DNA of 64,000 nucleotides from Desulfosarcina sp. BuS5 (GTDB lineage Bacteria > Desulfobacterota > Desulfobacteria > Desulfobacterales > BuS5): assembly GCF_028752835.1 (NCBI RefSeq), contig NZ_CP087952.1, positions 2,833,041 through 2,897,040 on the forward strand, read 5' to 3'. Positions 13,651 through 56,806 of this stretch are shown piece by piece. The first letter of the stretch is position 1. The number at the start of each line of letters is the position of its first letter. The position numbers were made by a program, and so were the translations under genes. A model generated the notes under the pieces. The model had not been told where the DNA came from and did no database searches. It worked only from the letters and a program-made list of their open reading frames with translations.

Positions 13651-14355
13651 ATGAATCAAAATAAAATATTGAATGTCCTCAACTTATCCAAGATATTTAA
13701 CATCCATATACTTGAAGAGAAGACTATTCAAGGATGCAGTAAAATTACATTTGATCTTGAAGAAGGTGAATCACTGGGTTTGTCAGGCCCGAGCGGTTCC
13801 GGAAAGAGTTCTATTTTAAAGTGTATATACCAAACATATATTCCTACAAAAGGTACAATATGGTACAAATCGAAAAAATACGGTAAAGTTGATCTTACTG
13901 TGCTGGCTCATCATCAAATTTTATCCTTAAGAAGAAACGAGATTGGCTATGTTTCGCAATTTTTAAATATTATTCCCAGAATACGGGCTGTTGATATAGT
14001 TGCCTCAAACCTTTTGCAAAATGGTGTTTCACAAAAAGATGCCAGGAAAAGAGCAGCCGAAATACTGGAAATGTTGAAAATACCTTCTCATCTCTTTGAT
14101 GCGTACCCTTGTACTTTCAGTGGAGGAGAACAGCAGAGAGTAAATATTGCCATGGGTGTTATTAAAAAGCCGAGACTTCTTTTACTTGATGAACCGACAG
14201 CATCTCTTGATGAAGTATCTATTGCCGCAGTCATAGAGGTTCTTGAGGAGCTTAAAAAGGAGGGAACAGCTATAATCGGCATTTTTCATGACACAAAAAT
14301 TATGAATTTAATTACAGATAAAGTTTACAACGTTACAGCAGAGGCTGGTTTATGA
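13651..14355 (+). CDS. phnL: C-P lyase ATP-binding subunit PhnL
   Basis: 234 aa from the ATG preceded by AAGGA (13637-13641); in-frame upstream ATG codons lie within phnK. Second ABC-type subunit of the C-P lyase complex. Walker A GPSGSGKSSIL, the Q-loop GYVSQFLN with the PhnL-type IIPRIRAVDIVA, signature TFSGGEQQRVNIAMG, Walker B LLLLDEPTASLD. Overlaps phnM by 4 bp. Confidence 0.92.
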   Translation: MNQNKILNVLNLSKIFNIHILEEKTIQGCSKITFDLEEGESLGLSGPSGSGKSSILKCIYQTYIPTKGTIWYKSKKYGKVDLTVLAHHQILSLRRNEIGYVSQFLNIIPRIRAVDIVASNLLQNGVSQKDARKRAAEILEMLKIPSHLFDAYPCTFSGGEQQRVNIAMGVIKKPRLLLLDEPTASLDEVSIAAVIEVLEELKKEGTAIIGIFHDTKIMNLITDKVYNVTAEAGL

Positions 14356-15506
14356 AAAACAAAAATTTTATTATTGAAAATGCCTCGATTTCGACTCCGG
14401 CCGGAATAGTGGAAAAAGGCTCATGTAAGGTCGAAAATGGAATTATTTCCAGAATTATTAAGGGCAGAATAGAATCAAACATGCACAGAATTAATGCTAA
14501 AGGAGCTTATCTTTTACCAGGTTTTATAGATCTTCACAGTGATGCCCTGGAAAAAGAAATTGAACCAAGACCCAATACTTATTTTCCGATAAATATCGCT
14601 TTGCTTGAACTGGATAAAAAACTTGCATCTTGCGGGGTGACTACTATATTTCATGCTATCTCCTTTGCAGAGGGTGAAATAGGGGTTCGTTCCAATAAAA
14701 TGGCTGCAAACGTTATTAATGAAATAAATCGTCTTAAAGCCCTGATGTGCATAAATGTAAGGGTTCATGCAAGATTTGAAATAACCGATCATAAAGCAGT
14801 TGCCTATCTTGAGGATAGTTTAAAAGCAAAAAAAATTAATCTTCTATCTTTTATGGATCATACTCCCGGTCAGGGGCAATTCAAAAAAAAAGCCTCTTTT
14901 AAAGCCTACTTCGGGAATGTTTACAAAAAAAATGAAGCTGAAATTATAAAAATTATTGATAAAAAAATTGCAAACGAAGATAAAAAGAAATCTAATATGG
15001 ATTATCTTGCAAATCTTTGCCGGTCTCTGAAAATTACCATGGCGTCCCATGATGATGATACAACTGACAAAATAGATCGGTTAAAAATAATGGGCATAAC
15101 CATATCGGAATTTCCGGTAAATCAGAAAACAGCTAAAGCTGCACTGGATAAAGGGTTTCATGTCTGTTTAGGCGCTCCCAATGTTTTAAGAGGAATATCC
15201 CAGACACAGAACCTTAATGCAAGAAAAGCTATTATGGCGGGATATGGAGATATTCTTGCTTCTGATTACGCACCCATGACACTTCTTCATGCGGTTTTCA
15301 CCATCTTTAAATTAAATATTCTTCCCCTGCATGAGGCTGTTAACATGGTATCTATCAATCCTGCTAGGGCTGCAGGGATTATAAATCATACAGGATCACT
15401 GGATAAGGGAAAAGAAGCAGATATTCTTCTGGTTGATGCACTGGGCGAGATACCTCGAATTTTAAAAACATTTGTCTCAGGTAAGGAGGTTTTTTCAACA
15501 TGTTAA
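14352..15506 (+). CDS. phnM: Alpha-D-ribose 1-methylphosphonate 5-triphosphate diphosphatase
   Basis: 384-aa amidohydrolase-fold enzyme that removes pyrophosphate from the ribosyl triphosphate intermediate. Metal-site motifs: PGFIDLHSDALEKEIEPRP, FMDHTPGQGQF, MASHDDDT and ILASDYAPMTLLHA. The last codons overlap the next gene by 7 bp. Last of the canonical phn genes here; no phnF, phnN, phnO or phnP is present. Confidence 0.93.
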   Translation: MKNKNFIIENASISTPAGIVEKGSCKVENGIISRIIKGRIESNMHRINAKGAYLLPGFIDLHSDALEKEIEPRPNTYFPINIALLELDKKLASCGVTTIFHAISFAEGEIGVRSNKMAANVINEINRLKALMCINVRVHARFEITDHKAVAYLEDSLKAKKINLLSFMDHTPGQGQFKKKASFKAYFGNVYKKNEAEIIKIIDKKIANEDKKKSNMDYLANLCRSLKITMASHDDDTTDKIDRLKIMGITISEFPVNQKTAKAALDKGFHVCLGAPNVLRGISQTQNLNARKAIMAGYGDILASDYAPMTLLHAVFTIFKLNILPLHEAVNMVSINPARAAGIINHTGSLDKGKEADILLVDALGEIPRILKTFVSGKEVFSTC

Positions 15507-16411
15507 ATATAGGAAGCAAAATAGATGATGTAAGAGTAGACGGAAATCTGAATAAATTTAAAAATGACCTTGAACATTTTGCAAGTATCGGCCTTGATTA
15601 TGTTGAGCTGCCTGTTCATGGCCTTGATGCTGTTATGAACGGCAGGCTGAACAGAAAAAAAGTTGGGAAAATCAAAGAAATATTAAGTGATTTTGATTTC
15701 AGATATACTATACATTCCCCAAATCCTCTTAATCTTATGGATAGGGAAAATTTTACTCTGCATCTTGATGTATTTCGGGCAAGCCTTGAATTTGCAGCAG
15801 AAATCGGATCTGAAATACTTGTTTACCATTCAGGCAGATTTATTCCTGAAGAAAAATTTCCGATTAATAAAATACGTAATTTGCCGGCTGATGAAAAAAA
15901 AAGACTTCTGAAAATTGAAGCCGAGGCATTGGAAAAGCTTTCTGATGAATATCCTGAAGTAATAATTTGTCTTGAAAATGCAAGACCTTATCTTTTCCAC
16001 AGCCCTTATTGTTATGCGGAAAAAATTACCCCTTTAAAGGAACAGGTAGAAAGAATAAATAAAAAAAATGTCAAAATCATACTCGATATCGGTCATCTTA
16101 ATATGGCGGCAAATTTTTATCATTTCGATCCTGTTAAGGAAGTTTCCGGCATAAAAAATCTTATTTCACATACACATATTCATGATAATTTTGGAGGAGC
16201 TGTTTATCATTATGAAAAGATTCAAACATTTCAGCTCCCTTTTGGACGGGGAGATTCTCACATGCCGGTTGGATGGGGAAATATTCCGATCAGGGAAATA
16301 CTTTCAACGTATATCGATTCCTACAAAGGGGCGCTCATAATGGAGCTTCGCAGCAGATATTTTTATGATATTGAAGAGTCGGCGGATAACATAAGAAGAA
16401 TAATGGGTTAA
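15500..16411 (+). CDS. TIM-barrel sugar phosphate isomerase/epimerase-like protein
   Basis: 303-aa protein of the xylose isomerase/AP endonuclease 2 superfamily, translationally coupled to phnM. Barrel landmarks: YVELPVHGLD, YTIHSPNPLNLMD, ILVYHSGRF, ICLENARPY, LDIGHLNMAA, HTHIHDNFGG and a terminal IMELRSRY; the conserved His, Glu and Asp residues would bind divalent metal. The exact substrate cannot be read. Position suggests action on the ribose (cyclic) phosphate leaving C-P lyase, possibly taking the place of phnP and/or phnN (inference). It ends the operon; no clear terminator follows. Confidence 0.8.
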   Translation: MLNIGSKIDDVRVDGNLNKFKNDLEHFASIGLDYVELPVHGLDAVMNGRLNRKKVGKIKEILSDFDFRYTIHSPNPLNLMDRENFTLHLDVFRASLEFAAEIGSEILVYHSGRFIPEEKFPINKIRNLPADEKKRLLKIEAEALEKLSDEYPEVIICLENARPYLFHSPYCYAEKITPLKEQVERINKKNVKIILDIGHLNMAANFYHFDPVKEVSGIKNLISHTHIHDNFGGAVYHYEKIQTFQLPFGRGDSHMPVGWGNIPIREILSTYIDSYKGALIMELRSRYFYDIEESADNIRRIMG

Positions 16412-16465
16412 GGAATGATTAGGCACTTTAAACAGGTTGTATTATCTTCAGTAAAGGGGAGTTTA

Positions 16466-16649
16466 GGGACGCCCTTTACATTTCCATATTTACAGTTTTA
16501 GGCTGAAGAATCGATGAGATTATAGCCCTTTTGTTGTACTATTGTCTCTCCCAGGCCAATGAGAACCGTAAATGTGAACATTTCACCAGCGCCCACCAGT
16601 TTCCCCCAATAACCATCATTTCAAAACTGTAAATATAAAGGGCGTCCCC
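16466..16649. repeat. RAYT-derived mini-element, copy 2 (22-bp deletion)
   Basis: Same termini and core as 3570-3775 but lacking 22 bp in the middle (the stretch between two CTC triplets). It sits immediately downstream of the phn operon. The remaining DNA up to the toxin-antitoxin genes (16650-16850) shows no supported gene. Confidence 0.8.
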
Positions 16650-16853
16650 AACCTCCACCTTCAGGACGGAGAGCTCATTTCCAACCGCCTGGGCAATTCT
16701 TTAAGCGATATCCCCAGCCCCTCAAAGATTTTTTTCTGTTGGGGCAACCAATATTCCAATGGATGTCCCCAAATACGGCCCAACTTTTTGATATTACAAC
16801 GCAATAAAAAAGTTCTTGAAATTTTAAAAATAAGATGTATATTTATTGTAATG

Positions 16854-16866
16854 GTATTGTCAATAC
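16854..16866. promoter_or_regulatory. Candidate operator of the toxin-antitoxin operon
   Basis: Perfect palindrome GTATTG-T-CAATAC about 28 bp upstream of the antitoxin start, inside an AT-rich promoter region. RelB-type antitoxins bind such palindromes to repress their own operon; binding here is inferred. Confidence 0.5.
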
Positions 16867-16893
16867 ATATAGCCCCATAAGTAGGAGAAAGCT

Positions 16894-17154
16894 ATGGCAA
16901 AAACAGCAACAATTCAAACCCGTGTAGATCCCGAGATAAAACAAAATGCCCAAATGATATTAAAAACATTAAATATATCAATGTCAGAGGCTATTTCAAT
17001 GTACCTTTCACAAATAACGTTACATAAAGGAATTCCTTTTGAAATAAAAATTCCGAATGAGGTTACAGCTAAAACACTTAGAGACGCTGAAAATGGAAAT
17101 GAACTTCATAAAGTTGACTCTGTTGATGCATTATTTCAGGAGCTTGATAGTTGA
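16894..17154 (+). CDS. RelB/DinJ-family antitoxin
   Basis: 86 aa. The N-terminal ribbon-helix-helix region (TIQTRVDPEIKQNAQMILKT, then LNISMSEAISMYL) binds DNA, and the C-terminal tail (VDSVDALFQELDS) would wrap the toxin. Preceded by GTAGGAGA. It overlaps the toxin gene by 4 bp, the usual coupled arrangement. Confidence 0.9.
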   Translation: MAKTATIQTRVDPEIKQNAQMILKTLNISMSEAISMYLSQITLHKGIPFEIKIPNEVTAKTLRDAENGNELHKVDSVDALFQELDS

Positions 17155-17420
17155 ACCTACATTACACAACTCAATTTAAAAAAGACTATAAAAGGATCAA
17201 AAAACAAAATAAAGATCTTGATAAATTAAGGGTTGTCATCAAAAAATTGGTTGCAGGTCAATTGTTGGAACCAAAGTATAAAGACCACCAATTATCTGGA
17301 AACTGGAAAAACCACCGCGATTGCCACATTGAACCAGACTGGATCTTCATCTATCAAATCACAGACGATGATTTGTATTTAGAAAGAACTGGTTCCCATT
17401 CTGAGCTATTCAAAAAGTGA
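17151..17420 (+). CDS. YafQ-family mRNA interferase toxin
   Basis: 89 aa, TTG start overlapping the antitoxin stop. RelE-superfamily ribosome-dependent endoribonuclease. YafQ landmarks: FKKDYKRIKKQ, KDHQLSGNWKNHRDCHIEPDWIFIYQI, LERTGSHSELF; the His residues of the active site (H50, H63 and H87 equivalents) appear present. Flanked on both sides by the 206-bp repeat. Confidence 0.9.
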   Translation: MNLHYTTQFKKDYKRIKKQNKDLDKLRVVIKKLVAGQLLEPKYKDHQLSGNWKNHRDCHIEPDWIFIYQITDDDLYLERTGSHSELFKK

Positions 17421-17492
17421 TAAATGACGGTAGCGAACAACGAGCTAACCAGCGGCGGGTAAAGGGTTAAGGGAGAGTTTAGAGGAGAGTTT

Positions 17493-17698
17493 GGGACGCC
17501 CTTTATCTTTCCATATTTACAGTTTTAGGCTGAAAAATCGATGAGATTATAGCCCTTTTGTTGTACTATTGTCTCTCCTCGCTTTAATGATTGACTCACC
17601 CAGGCCAATGAGAACCGTAAATGTGAACATTTCACCAGCGCCCACCAGTTTCCCCCAATAACCATCATTTCAAAACTGTAAATATAAAGGGCGTCCCC
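17493..17698. repeat. RAYT-derived mini-element, copy 3
   Basis: Full-length copy almost identical to 3570-3775, with the same inverted ends. Together with copy 2 it brackets the toxin-antitoxin pair at about 1 kb spacing, in the same orientation. Confidence 0.8.
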
Positions 17699-17761
17699 AA
17701 CCTTCCATGCCCCGCTTACAAAACGGAACTATAAGGTATAACCAATAAGATATAAAAATAA

Positions 17762-17963
17762 CGCCGGCTGTTGAGCCGCGAGAATCGCAGGCACTGAATG
17801 AAAAAGGCGGTTTTTTTTCATTCAGTGTCGAGAATCGCAGTCGGCTCGAACGCCCTTGATAGGTGGAGCGTGAGCGGAACCTGTCAAGGACGTTCGAGGA
17901 ACTCGACAGCCGGCGATAAGTTGACCGTGTGCGTAGCGTAGCGGAGCTCACGGTCAACTTATC
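17762..17963. repeat. Cluster of nested inverted repeats before a methyltransferase gene
   Basis: Four paired arms fill this stretch: an outer pair 17762-17775/17902-17915 (CGCCGGCTGT type), 17792-17805/17814-17827 (CACTGAATGAAAAA), 17845-17863/17880-17898 (CTCGAACG.CCTTGA.AGG), and 17915-17929/17949-17963 (15-bp perfect GATAAGTTGACCGTG), plus a 12-bp direct repeat CGAGAATCGCAG at 17779 and 17829. The last hairpin ends at the base before the ribosome-binding site of the next gene, so it could affect translation. Confidence 0.8.
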
Positions 17964-17973
17964 AGGAGGATAT

Positions 17974-18969
17974 ATGGATACAAACGAGTGGACCCCGGCC
18001 ATGGCCCTTGAAACGTCCGGAAGTTATTGGGCTGCATCTACTCTTCATTCAGCAATAGAACTCGATCTGTTCACGATTCTGGGTGACCGACAGTACGACA
18101 TCGAAGAGATCGTAAGAATAATCAATGCGGACGAACGGGGCTTGTCCATGCTCCTGAACGCCCTTTCCGCATTGAAACTCATTTCAAAAACCGGCAGGAA
18201 ATACTTCAACACTCCTTTCAGTAAATCTTTTCTGTCCAAAGACTCTCGACAGTACATCGGTTACATTATTATGCACCATAAGCATCTCACAGATGTCTGG
18301 GTTAAGCTTTCCCGTGCGGTCCGGAGCGGTCTCCCCGTCAAAGACCGGGAATTTTTGAATGACAAAGAACAGCTTGAAAACTTCCTGATGGGTATGTTCA
18401 ACGTGGCCAGTAACGTAGCGCCCAAGGTAGCTGAAAAAATCGATTTATCCAATTGCAATCACCTTCTCGATATAGGTGGCGGCCCAGGGACATACGCCAT
18501 TCATTTCTGTATGAAATATCTACAACTTAAAGCCTCGATTTACGACCTGCCACCAACTAGACCCTTTGCCGAAAAAACTATTCTCGAATTCAATTTGACC
18601 GATAGAATACGATTCGTTGAGGGCAATTATCTCCTGGACAAGATTGAAGGATCCTATGACGTAGTCTGGCTTTCGCACATCCTCCATGCAGAAGGTCCGG
18701 AATCCTGCCGAACCATACTGCAAAAGGCCGTTTCCGTCATGGAACCTGGGGGTATAATCCTTGTCCACGATTTCATATTGAACGACACCATGGATGGCCC
18801 GGTCTTCCCCGCGCTATTTTCCCTGAACATGCTTCTGAATACGCCTTCCGGTCGGTCCTATTCCGAAAAGCAGATTATGGATATGCTTTCAAGTGCAGGC
18901 GTGCGGGAGCTTCGACGTGTGCCCTTCCAGGGGTTCAATGATTCAGGAATTATTTCTGGTATGGTTTAA
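17974..18969 (+). CDS. SAM-dependent O-methyltransferase family protein
   Basis: 331 aa. Start chosen at the ATG 5 nt after AGGAGG (17964-17969); an upstream ATG lies in the hairpin region. The N-terminal winged-helix dimerisation domain (about 1-100) is followed by a Rossmann SAM-binding domain with motif I LLDIGGGPGTYA (about residues 160-171), acidic loop YDLPPTRPFA, and late motifs GGIILVHDFIL and SEKQIMDMLSSAGV. This fits the O-methyltransferase family 2 fold. The substrate is unknown. No operon partner. GC content is visibly higher than in the flanking DNA. Confidence 0.82.
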   Translation: MDTNEWTPAMALETSGSYWAASTLHSAIELDLFTILGDRQYDIEEIVRIINADERGLSMLLNALSALKLISKTGRKYFNTPFSKSFLSKDSRQYIGYIIMHHKHLTDVWVKLSRAVRSGLPVKDREFLNDKEQLENFLMGMFNVASNVAPKVAEKIDLSNCNHLLDIGGGPGTYAIHFCMKYLQLKASIYDLPPTRPFAEKTILEFNLTDRIRFVEGNYLLDKIEGSYDVVWLSHILHAEGPESCRTILQKAVSVMEPGGIILVHDFILNDTMDGPVFPALFSLNMLLNTPSGRSYSEKQIMDMLSSAGVRELRRVPFQGFNDSGIISGMV

Positions 18970-19001
18970 GAAACTGAGGATCGGCCCTTTCAAGGTACTA
19001 C

Positions 19002-19120
19002 TATAGATTGTCACATAAATAATTTCACTGCGTTATCGGTCGTCGGAGTATTACAATACGCCTTCCTCCCTCTGGCCTTGTGCTAAATTTTAAAATCAGG
19101 TAATTATCTGACAATCTATA
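19002..19120. repeat. 119-bp palindromic repeat with variable centre, copy 1
   Basis: The ends TATAGATTGTCA... and ...TGACAATCTATA are inverted repeats. The body shares TTTCACTGCGTTATCGGTC and CTCCCTCTGGCCTTGTG plus TTTTAAAATCAGGTAATTAT with 53856-53984. The centre is self-complementary here as GTATT-AC-AATAC. Confidence 0.75.
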
Positions 19121-19497
19121 CCAGGCTTATTTTTAAGAATAAACACTTTCGGGCAAACAGGTGCTCTATACTCAACAGCCTTTATTCCCAGTCGATTCCA
19201 TGTAAATATCCGACTTGACAGTCCTATGGGTATCAGGTATTTGAATCCTTATTGGATTTATAGCTTTTCATCTACATTAATTATCTGAAAATAAATTCTT
19301 ATCCTTTATTCCAGGCGGCACAGGTCCCAATTAGCTAAAAGATATCAATAAAGGCAAACGGGTAAAGATGCCGGCGCCTCTTGGGAACCTCGAAAATCCT
19401 GCATCCTGGCGATTCAAAGGAATAACCGGGAAGAATACTCGCGCTTCTGTACTGATAGACCTATGTTCGACCCGGGAAAAACCTGCTGGGAAAAATC
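19121..19497. other. Intergenic region upstream of pyrD, no supported feature
   Basis: 377 bp without an open frame I trust. A GGCAAAC segment near 19350 was examined for a c-di-GMP-I riboswitch, but the required partner motifs are absent. The pyrD start has only a weak upstream purine tract (CTGGGAAAAATC). Confidence 0.5.
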
Positions 19498-21379: not shown

Positions 21380-22646
21380 ATGCAAAATACAGCAAATACA
21401 GCCCTAACACTTTTTTGTCCCGGGAAAAGCTGCAAATATTATCAATCAACCGAGAACAAAATCGCCAAGGATGGAGTTTACATAACAAAATCCGATTTTG
21501 AGCCAAGACAAATGTTTTACTGCAATGGTGGCAAACATAGATTCTCAGAAACAGGATATTCCGATCTTTTTGGAAAGCATGGCAGTTTTAAAGAATATGA
21601 GCAAACGGCAAAGCTAAACTTTTACGGCCTTGGCACTGATGCAATTGCCGATGTACTTCAAAAAGATCGAAGGACAATTGAACAATGGCAAAAAGCTATT
21701 GGGCAAAAAGGCCAGCAATTTCACCTATTTCTTTGTTTTACTATCGGGCTTACCATTGTATTTCTCCAGATGGATGAACTATGGTCTTACCTTAAAAATA
21801 AAAGTCAACAATTATGGGTTTTTATCGCTCTTGAATCCACAACAAAATTCTGGATCGGTTTCGAGTTGGGTTCAAGAACAACTTACACTGCAAACCGTTT
21901 AGTAAAGGGCATTAAAAAGTTGGGCAAATGGGGAAAAGATAATATATTAAAGGTCGCTACAGATAAATTAGCGGCTTACAAAAATGCGCTCGAAAACATT
22001 ATGTCTGAAATTCCTTATGCTTACCTGCAAATTGTTAAGCGCCGAATAAAGCGTCGGCTTGTAACAGTTAAAAAATATTTTGTAAAAGGTACTGTAAAAG
22101 ATTTCCCCGGAAAAAGCCAAAACACCTCATTTATTGAGAGACTGAACCTTACCCTGAGGCAACATATCTCCTATCTTCAGAGAAAAACCCTGGGGTATTG
22201 CAAGAACAAGCTGAATTTTAGTAATGTAATCTGGATTAACTTATTCAACTATAATTACATACAATTTCATAAGAGCTTACGAATACGAATTAATAATGAA
22301 AACGAGAAATTTATAAAAAAGTAGGCATCCTTCATAAACCATAAAAAGTAGTTTACACTTTTTGAAAACGATATTTGATTGTATTAACTATTTACTGATA
22401 AGGGACTTCCCTTATAATGAATTTGATAGAGTAAGCATTTTAGCCCTGAAAGGGCGCTACATACCAGCCCAGGGCAACGCCCTGGGCTGGTATGTCTAAC
22501 ACCTTCAGGGTTTTTGACTAAAGTGTAAACTAAATTTGAAGGATGCCAAAAAGTATAACCATAATACACCGGCAATGCAGATGGGACTTACGAATTTTCC
22601 ACTAAACTGGAGATATCTCATTACAGTCCCAATACCTTGTAAGTAG
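21380..22646 (+). pseudogene. IS1-family-like transposase interrupted by a MITE
   Basis: The frame runs 21380-22323 and, after removal of the MITE and one copy of its target duplication, continues to a stop at 22644-22646 with KYNHNTPAMQMGLTNFPLNW. N-terminal zinc-ribbon Cys (CPGKSCKYYQ), then a recognition-helix region (DAIADVLQKDRRTIEQWQ), catalytic blocks MDELWSYL, ATDKLAAYKNAL and FIERLNLTLRQ. The interrupted gene still gives a 314-aa product ending NEKFIKK with all catalytic blocks; whether it is active is unknown. Confidence 0.88.
22324..22547. repeat. 224-bp MITE with 8-bp target duplication
   Basis: The ends GGCATCCTTCA.../...TGAAGGATGCC are inverted, with a second inner pair AGTTTACACTTT/AAAGTGTAAACT. 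Flanking 8-bp direct repeats AAAAAGTA at 22316-22323 and 22548-22555. A long hairpin (ACATACCAGCCCAGGGC with its complement, about 22459-22495) fills the right half. Excision restores the transposase frame. Confidence 0.85.
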
Positions 22647-54525: not shown

Positions 54526-54748
54526 ACATCCATGATAACATAAGGGGTAAAGTGGATACCCCCCCCTTTAAATAAATAAGCAAATAATATTTTTTATTAA
54601 TTTGGCATAATTATTGCCGCTTTTTTGACTTAAAAATTAATGCCTCTTCTAGGCATTCAATTAATTTTGCTTTTGGACCATGACGGAATCTATGTTTATT
54701 GTTTATTTTGCATCATATTTACTTTAATATCATAATAGGTGTAAAAGT

Positions 54749-56806
54749 TTGCTAATAAACGTAATATGTGTACTAAATATATATTTTATACAGGTTTTAT
54801 TATTTCATATATGCGTAAAAAAATGCGGCCTATATGCGAATGCATTAATTCCTGAATATTATACAAATGACGAAGAATTGATTATCGAGCGGTTGGGTAA
54901 AGAATTTTATATTACAAGTATTGGAAAGGAATTAGTAGTCGGAAAAAGTGTATATCGATATATTCTCGTGAAACCAACAGATATGTATAAAGAAATGTTT
55001 AATCTTGACCGTGAAATTGTTTTAACTTTTAGCCCTTATGTGCCATTTGAACCCAGATCATTAGATGCCATCCCTCTCGCGATTAACCGCCACCAAAACC
55101 TCAGGATAGAACGTATATGTAGCGTTATCGTCAGCAAAGATGACGATGTTGGATATAAACTTTCAGAATTACTAAAAAATGATCAAGAAGCACAAATAGT
55201 AGTACCTTTCGCATACCAAGAATTAATTGAAAAAATCGATGATTCATTTTTTTTCAGGAATAGGTTTAAAAAGCATTTTTTTTCAAGGGATCTTTTTGCA
55301 TCAGAAGCACCCTTAAAAAAAGATTTATATTTTTTTGGTAGACATGATTTAGTTCACAGTTTTGTAACTAGACATCGATCCAATCAAGTTTCAGGGTTAT
55401 TTGGCCTTCGAAAAACCGGGAAAACATCTGTGCTCTTTGGCATCCAGAGGGCTCTGAATAAAATTAATGGAGTATCAGTTTTTATAGACTGTCAGAATCC
55501 TGCTTTCCATCGCTGCCGGTGGAACAAAGCTCTGAACTATGTACTTACAGAAATAAAAAAGCAGCACAAACTGAGTGTTCGGCTACAGCCAGAGGATAAT
55601 TATTCCGAAGCTAAAGCCCCTATAATATTTGAGGATATAATACTAAAAATGTCAAAGGAATTAGGTGAAAAAAATATTCTTCTAATCTTTGATGAGATTG
55701 AAAATATAACTCCTGGAGTATCACCTTCTGAACATTGGACAACGGAACTTGATTTTATATTTTTTTGGCAAACGTTACGTTCATTGTTTCAGAAACTGCC
55801 AAAAACTTTTTCCTATTTAATTGTAGGCACAAATCCTCTTTGCGTCGAAACGGAAAGTATCCATGGGAAAGACAATCCAATTTATGGCCAAATTCCGCTT
55901 GAATATATACCTCGATTTGATGTTCCACAAACAAGAGAGATGGTTCGTAGATTAGGAAAAATAATGGGCATGAAATTTGATGAAATTCTCTACGGGAAGC
56001 TCACTGAGGATTTCGGTGGGCATCCATATTTAATTAGACACGTTTGCAGCGTCATCAACAAAATATCTAAAAATGAACGCCCAGTGCGGATTGATAAAAG
56101 TGTTTATGAAAAAGCAAAAAAAACATTCATTCGGGACTATAGCCACTTTATGGAAATGATCCTGAACGTTCTGCATGATCATTTCAATGATGAATATGAA
56201 ATGTTAAAGTATCTTTCTCTTGATGACATTGAAACCTTTAAAGAGTTTGCTGACCTTTCACCTTTATATACTAATCATTTAATAGGTTATGGCATTGTAG
56301 AACAAAATGAAGGAAACTACACCTTCCGAATTGAAACAATCCGTGATTTCCTTTCATCAAAGCAAAAGTATAAAAAGTTAAATCAAACTCAAAGCGAAAT
56401 GTGGGCGGAGATATCCGAAAGAAGAAATGTTTTAGAACCAAGGCTTCGTTCGCTTTGCCGGATGCAACTTCAGGCTCATTTCGGTTCTTCCATTGCTCAT
56501 AGAAAGGTTTTAGATTTGTTAGGAAAACCACGTAAGACAAAAAACAACTCCCTTTCTTTTTCAGAGCTGTTTGATGGTAACAAATCTAAAATACTGTTTT
56601 CTGATCTACCAAAGATGATTTCAAAATATTGGGACTGCTTTAAAAATATCCTTGGCCCAGATAAAAATGAAATTATCGGCAATTTAAACAAAATCAATAC
56701 AATGCGTAAAGATGCACATGCTAACAATGTTTCCAAGGAGGAAATGCAAATATTCCGAGCCTATGTTGGCAACGTTGAAAAAAAGGTTGATCAGTTTTTC
56801 GGATAA
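54749..56806 (+). CDS. STAND-like P-loop NTPase with possible C-terminal HEPN domain
   Basis: 685 aa from a TTG; no ATG occurs before about residue 78, so the true start is uncertain. N-terminal domain (to ~200) of unknown fold ending RNRFKKHFFSRDLFA. The P-loop domain has Walker A GLRKTGKTSVLFG (about 222-234) and Walker B ILLIFDEIENI (about 310). A helical/winged region follows (GGHPYLIRHVCSVINK). The last ~110 residues are helical with INTMRKDAHANN, an R-x3-H motif like the nuclease signature of Swt1-type HEPN domains. A role as an NTP-driven defence or abortive-infection effector is inferred. It is followed by an attC-like site and a PIN-domain module. Confidence 0.7.
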   Translation: MLINVICVLNIYFIQVLLFHICVKKCGLYANALIPEYYTNDEELIIERLGKEFYITSIGKELVVGKSVYRYILVKPTDMYKEMFNLDREIVLTFSPYVPFEPRSLDAIPLAINRHQNLRIERICSVIVSKDDDVGYKLSELLKNDQEAQIVVPFAYQELIEKIDDSFFFRNRFKKHFFSRDLFASEAPLKKDLYFFGRHDLVHSFVTRHRSNQVSGLFGLRKTGKTSVLFGIQRALNKINGVSVFIDCQNPAFHRCRWNKALNYVLTEIKKQHKLSVRLQPEDNYSEAKAPIIFEDIILKMSKELGEKNILLIFDEIENITPGVSPSEHWTTELDFIFFWQTLRSLFQKLPKTFSYLIVGTNPLCVETESIHGKDNPIYGQIPLEYIPRFDVPQTREMVRRLGKIMGMKFDEILYGKLTEDFGGHPYLIRHVCSVINKISKNERPVRIDKSVYEKAKKTFIRDYSHFMEMILNVLHDHFNDEYEMLKYLSLDDIETFKEFADLSPLYTNHLIGYGIVEQNEGNYTFRIETIRDFLSSKQKYKKLNQTQSEMWAEISERRNVLEPRLRSLCRMQLQAHFGSSIAHRKVLDLLGKPRKTKNNSLSFSELFDGNKSKILFSDLPKMISKYWDCFKNILGPDKNEIIGNLNKINTMRKDAHANNVSKEEMQIFRAYVGNVEKKVDQFFG

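Follow-up and report, generated by a model that had tools for sequence, protein, structure and literature searches.

The locus examined here raises the question whether a dense cluster of hairpins ending at the ribosome-binding site of a methyltransferase gene is a control region of that gene or a mobile sequence that came to lie there. It is located in a stretch of 64,000 nucleotides from Desulfosarcina sp. BuS5 (the window; C1:2833041-2897040 of the 4.18 Mb genome). The first-pass annotation had reported four inverted-repeat pairs, a 12-bp direct repeat, a perfect 15-bp last stem and a differing base composition, and all of these were found. The inverted repeats are 17759-17775/17902-17918, 17792-17805/17814-17827, 17845-17864/17879-17898 and 17915-17932/17946-17963, and the direct repeat, CGAGAATCGCAG, occurs at 17779 and 17829. 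In the last stem, 17915-17929 pairs with 17949-17963, abutting AGGAGG, which starts at 17964. The G+C content is 55.7% in the element, 47.1% in the methyltransferase gene and 40.4% in the window. The gene itself, encoding an O-methyltransferase with Pfam Methyltransf_2 and Dimerisation domains (17974..18969, + strand), is a neighbour outside the element.

The element as delimited here is gene-less, 201 bp long, and occupies 17763..17963 of the + strand. It is preceded by AAC of the target at 17760..17762 (G^TT on the - strand). A main stem, identified by inverted repeat, fold and covariation, is formed by a 5' arm at 17763..17775 and a 3' arm at 17902..17914. It encloses inner hairpin 1 (17792..17827, 14-bp arms), which lies between the two CGAGAATCGCAG repeats, and inner hairpin 2 (17845..17898, 20-nt arms), with the loop TGGAGCGTGAGCGGA. 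The end hairpin of 15 perfect pairs (17915..17963) has R-box-like ends, GATAAGT and ACTTATC. The only 'cargo' of the element is a hairpin extending its stem. Folding of 17740-17990, as the annotation had proposed, gave -121.3 kcal/mol as compared to -70.9 ± 4.4 for dinucleotide shuffles (n = 200), none of which was as good (z = -11.4). In 16800-19400, no Rfam 15 covariance model matched at E values up to 5.

A genome-wide search, also suggested by the annotation, revealed that the stretch recurs many times. The cluster belongs to a family of near-identical gene-less cassettes of 201 bases, present at 37 places in the genome as 32 full copies (200-202 bp) and 5 partial ones. Nineteen of the full copies, the window copy included, are identical, and two subfamilies about 91% alike differ partly through paired changes. 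The 'stacked set of mobile hairpins' considered in the annotation was broadly right as to mobility, but the hairpins form one element and not a stack of separate ones. Most copies lie within two clusters, at C1:789-848 kb and 3968-4036 kb. When these were compared with each other, the element was repeated more than any other sequence (depth reaching about 30), followed by repeats of 2.3 kb (about 12; with Rfam group II intron matches) and 1.7 kb (about 8). A DNA search of the genome found no longer element sharing its sequence, and no flanking target duplication was seen by eye at the junctions.

The two clusters are integron arrays, and the integron cut consensus has the GWT form. The full copies stand at an attC crossover in 27/32 cases and at attI in 2/32, so that 29 of the 32 are integrated as gene cassettes are; the remaining three, the window copy among them, have no recognisable attC or attI. 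On the + strand the left junction reads AAC at 30/32 and ATC at 2/32, so that all 32 full copies have A(A/T)C here, which is complementary to G^WT, where integrons are cut. The box after the copy begins with GTT in 30/32 and with GAT in 2/32, and strict GTTRRRY is present in only 5/32. The R'' of the element, ACTTATC, is one letter off RYYYAAC. In place of a strict attC scan, which gave 5 matches in the array direction vs 3 in the opposite one in the 80-kb array region and 2 vs 1 in the window, the host flanks were read and scored for arm pairing. All 27 attC-type flanks begin with G, and 26 of them have paired arms with z <= -2.3, the exception being 4024529, where an intron-like stretch lies in the flank. 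Since both attI flanks also scored strongly (z -3.2 and -5.4), this score cannot separate attI from attC. Host attC sites folded as bottom strands (4/27) showed bulged stem bases. Within the arrays, group II introns matching RF02005 and RF00029 in Rfam were seen at 465-2749 and 14239-16784 of stretch L021, and some such introns are inserted in an attC adjoining a copy of the element.

The copies also share a direction with the arrays. Of the 29 attC/attI copies, 27 are followed within 250 nt by the start of a forward ORF of 60 aa or more; in 20 of these 27 the start lies within 60 nt. Reverse ORFs, shorter or longer, overlap at seven. With an attC before it and a GTT box and a gene after it, the element therefore takes the place and direction of a cassette. 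The opposite view, in which the copies would lie in reverse orientation at the R'' end of attC, proved wrong, because the gene starts with ribosome-binding sites lie on the other side and the array thus runs on the opposite strand. In the window, the + strand of the element corresponds to the bottom strand of the cassette and the - strand to the array direction; the + strand is also sense for the methyltransferase gene. The fixed array direction has a contrary case in the partial copy at 1029255, which is reversed, so that a toxin gene runs into the element. At this place the end of a toxin gene similar to the YafQ gene of the window is followed by the partial copy in its unusual direction.

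One array has an IntI gene without stops (TIGR02249, 428 bits, above cut-off) at 3966820-3967764, separated by 207 bp from its first copy; in the other array, an IntI remnant adjoins the first copy. Further IntI matches above cut-off were obtained at 2180843 and 2958878, giving three genome places in all. The attI stretch occurs at five genome places, one adjoining the IntI without stops and one adjoining the remnant.

The three full copies outside the arrays are those in the window, at 1541464 and at 3149466. Their flanks show no arm pairing comparable to attC-type flanks (z 1.2, 0.2 and 0.3, respectively), and at each of them the complement of the junction reads GTT or GAT, that is, G^WT outside attC and attI, as at attG sites. 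We compared ten sites that are neither attC nor clearly attI, related loci included. ATA lay 7 or 8 bases past the junction in 9/10 of them, as compared to 96 of 1529 A(A/T)C|A sites of the window (6%; binomial 1.4e-10, for a motif noticed before counting and loci that are not fully independent). The count comprised sites with an intact right flank (copies cut by a contig end at right, namely L060, L061 at 3890, L062, L066 and L076, were left out), and inclusion of the degenerate L056, which is without ATA, would make it 9/11. L055 could also be classed as attI-like, and the left ends of L057 and L072 are cut off. Two loci seen after the count, L046 and L047, both carry ATA and look attI-like. 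The ATA is present at position 7 or 8 in all nine attI-like flanks listed as well, and in this respect the off-array targets resemble attI. In the window, the attI-like half-site is AGGAGGATATATGG (17964..17977, + strand), which has the ATA at positions 7/8 and doubles as ribosome-binding site and start codon of the methyltransferase gene.

Matches to the methyltransferase protein at E <= 1e-30 were found in 48/58 genomes, the own one included and paralogues not separated, and among the 47 relatives with a match five upstream regions were read. Two of these, from relatives of the same genus (57% identical proteins), have AAACAGGAGG without an insert, which fits the predicted empty site. In the three others the element is absent too, and the regions do not align. 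In genome G026, a copy splits what by eye appears to be a glycosyltransferase gene.

A 24-base core pattern of the element matched 23 stretches in the genome collection. These belong to 12 named MAGs, mostly deltaproteobacterial (Desulfobacterales, Syntrophaceae, Smithella and others), with two labelled only Proteobacteria and one labelled Parachlamydia. Since this pattern corresponds to the loop region of inner hairpin 2, conservation of the loop among the matches proves nothing; one relative found by BLAST (L040) differs slightly in it. Among 57 relatives of the own genome, three match, one over 51 bases only. Attachment sites of attC-type, attI-like and other contexts recur in the relatives. 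IntI above cut-off is encoded in 9 of the 12 carrier MAGs and was not found in 3/12, and several attI-like flanks have no IntI within the sequence stretch examined. One of the latter (L064) has, right of the element, a gene whose product contains a LexA DNA-binding domain. The L062 copy, whose contig was assigned to a Parachlamydia bin without IntI above cut-off, would reflect either a binning error or transfer beyond deltaproteobacteria. Viral contigs gave no exact match to the core pattern and the plasmid and phage collections no BLAST match, and a plasmid or phage origin was rejected on this basis.

The element is strongly covarying. In an alignment of nine related type-A sequences, from which the structure under test was itself derived, 97.3% of cells were paired and 21/70 pairs had changed on both sides. 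Four of five covariation measures were reached by 0/500 shuffles, and the fifth, further pair types, was as high in 483/500. These nine sequences are part of a set of 18, which further comprises seven type-B sequences and two more type-A ones (G000c and CG2_30). The outer helix of inner hairpin 1 had 7/8 pairs changed on both sides. The + (bottom) strand was the more stable one in 18/18 sequences, some of them near-identical or partial, by 8-26 kcal/mol with RNA parameters. With the structure taken from the + strand, G-U vs A-C pairs numbered 38 vs 7 (type A) and 22 vs 5 (type B), and with the structure from the - strand 8 vs 13 and 9 vs 11; this test is not decisive for the strand, because its outcome follows the strand used for the structure. 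Folded with DNA parameters as a 201-nt single-stranded circle, the bottom strand has its end hairpin and main stem meeting back to back at the R box (-68.7 vs -64.3 for the other strand, which folds similarly). In two relatives (L058 and L061), shortened copies without parts of the inner hairpins, inner hairpin 2 being missing from both, have by eye apparent attC junctions, and the end hairpin and main stem thus look like the minimal parts. The base of the stem has neither extrahelical bases nor a central spacer, in which it differs from the four folded host attC sites.

We consider it likely that the element is a gene-less integron mini-cassette, an 'integron MITE', moved and amplified by IntI, which probably spread it through the genome. 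An ORF-less cassette reduced to a recombination site would be the simplest account of these data. IntI is described to recombine folded bottom strands, cutting at AAC (PMC11641012, PMC11023631). In the case of the element, IntI would act on the folded bottom strand, the + strand of the window, at G^WT. Its usual targets would be the attC R box and attI in cassette arrays, and its occasional ones attI-like chromosomal attG sites, here directly 5' of the methyltransferase ribosome-binding site. From the sequences we infer IntI as the enzyme, a single-stranded circle and a route of amplification: the circle would form one closed rod with the end hairpin, the R box and the main stem in line, and copies would increase in number since a single strand departs while its partner is copied. 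Points against the mini-cassette account are the stem without attC bulges or central spacer, the few strict GTTRRRY boxes, the reversed copy at 1029255, the carriers without IntI, the attI-like flanks with no IntI in their stretch and the dependence of the G-U/A-C test on the strand used for the structure.

A dedicated RNA leader controlling translation of the methyltransferase, which the annotation had offered as a translational control region, has in its favour that a perfect hairpin abuts AGGAGG and that the + strand is the sense strand of the gene. It is extremely improbable. Elsewhere in the genome, 31 further full copies, 18 with exactly the sequence of the window copy, stand beside other neighbours, and the array copies turn the opposite strand to their genes. 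The element is conserved before the same gene in 0/5 of the relatives' regions read. Together with the empty Rfam search, this recurrence and absence led us to reject a riboswitch or dedicated leader. The hairpin may have a side effect on translation of the methyltransferase. A MITE-like non-autonomous transposon, or an unknown transposase targeting attC and attI, is improbable as well. It would account for a short, non-coding sequence in many near-identical copies, and attC-specific insertion sequences are known. However, the junctions fall on the integron crossover at attC, attI and off-array sites alike, and the genome holds neither a longer relative nor, by eye, a flanking duplication.

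The last rival disputes only selfishness: the same mini-cassette would have been kept by selection for a regulatory role upstream of cassette genes, as a promoter, insulator, terminator or small RNA, and its copy number would reflect use and not selfish spread. The array copies do stand directly 5' of genes, there is one terminator-like match at the exit of the element on the - strand, and gene-less Vibrio cassettes can act as promoters (PMC11014356). On the other hand, a promoter scan found none inside the element, the sole match (- strand) lying in the flank, and off-array copies exist too, in the window with the other strand facing the gene. A regulatory function is possible, and we think it somewhat doubtful. 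The mini-cassette moved by IntI may instead be selfish rather than useful. Whether such elements make up a class of minimal selfish integron parasites of about 200 nt, consisting of a recombination site only, spreading as self-closed single-stranded rods and using host IntI as a genome-wide transposase to enter attC, attI and attI-like chromosomal sites, ribosome-binding sites among them, across deltaproteobacteria, seems to us an evenly balanced question.

Multi-copy gene-less cassettes are already known from Vibrio, as is IntI insertion at genomic attG sites. One gene-less family has 45 and 34 members in two V. vulnificus arrays, and a selfish origin is among the explanations proposed for Vibrio non-coding cassettes (PMC1382264). 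The gene-less Vibrio cassettes described in PMC11014356 measure 491-666 bp, with an attC of 101-127 bp. Like the paralogous non-coding Vibrio cassettes, the element has no gene, a high copy number and near-identical copies; unlike them, it is only 201 bp long and nearly all paired, has a stem without bulges, and is present in several genera and also outside arrays. Canonical attC sites carry extrahelical bases and an unpaired central spacer near the stem base (PMC11641012), and the element differs from them in lacking both. The use of genomic attG sites by IntI for cassette insertion was described by Loot et al. (2024, Nature Microbiology, as relayed in PMC11023631 and PMC11641012). The off-array copies resemble these insertions as cassette-type elements at G^WT outside an array, but, as far as the relayed account goes, they differ in occupying natural sites with a common attI-like half-site and in being a gene-less, repeated passenger.

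MITEs are likewise short non-coding repeats, whereas the element has no autonomous counterpart with the same ends in its own genome and no duplication by eye. IS1111-attC elements and group II introns insert specifically in attC. The element shares the attC insertion with them, but its junctions fit the integron crossover and its stretch of the window has no transposase or intron-model match; group II introns form separate repeats within the same arrays. In the open-access literature, to which the survey was confined, we found no cassette this small, all-hairpin, spread over genera and located outside arrays. Thus, the miniature all-hairpin design, multi-genus and in gene leaders, looks new.

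If IntI moves the element, integrons would harbour a MITE-like parasite of their own, whose copies would form a natural record of IntI action outside arrays, marking attG sites and suggesting that attG imitates attI. The element also tests how little an attC needs: bulged attC bases are thought to steer strand choice, and here full array copies in one direction are found with no bulges. An apparent regulatory leader turned out to be an insertion, which calls for caution in leader annotation.

Some further features of the window were seen around the element. A RelB antitoxin and YafQ toxin pair (Pfam) is present at 16894-17420, and after it, at about 17428, comes sequence that reads like an attC start. 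A second long inverted repeat, GGGACGCCCTTTAT.../...ATAAAGGGCGTCCCC (17495-17698), adjoins the element and, by eye only, looks like a REP/RAYT-type palindrome. A transposase-like gene (DDE_Tnp_IS1) at 21380-22324 has no link to the element. Far downstream, the attI region of the integron has a relic at 54665-54840 (81% alike).
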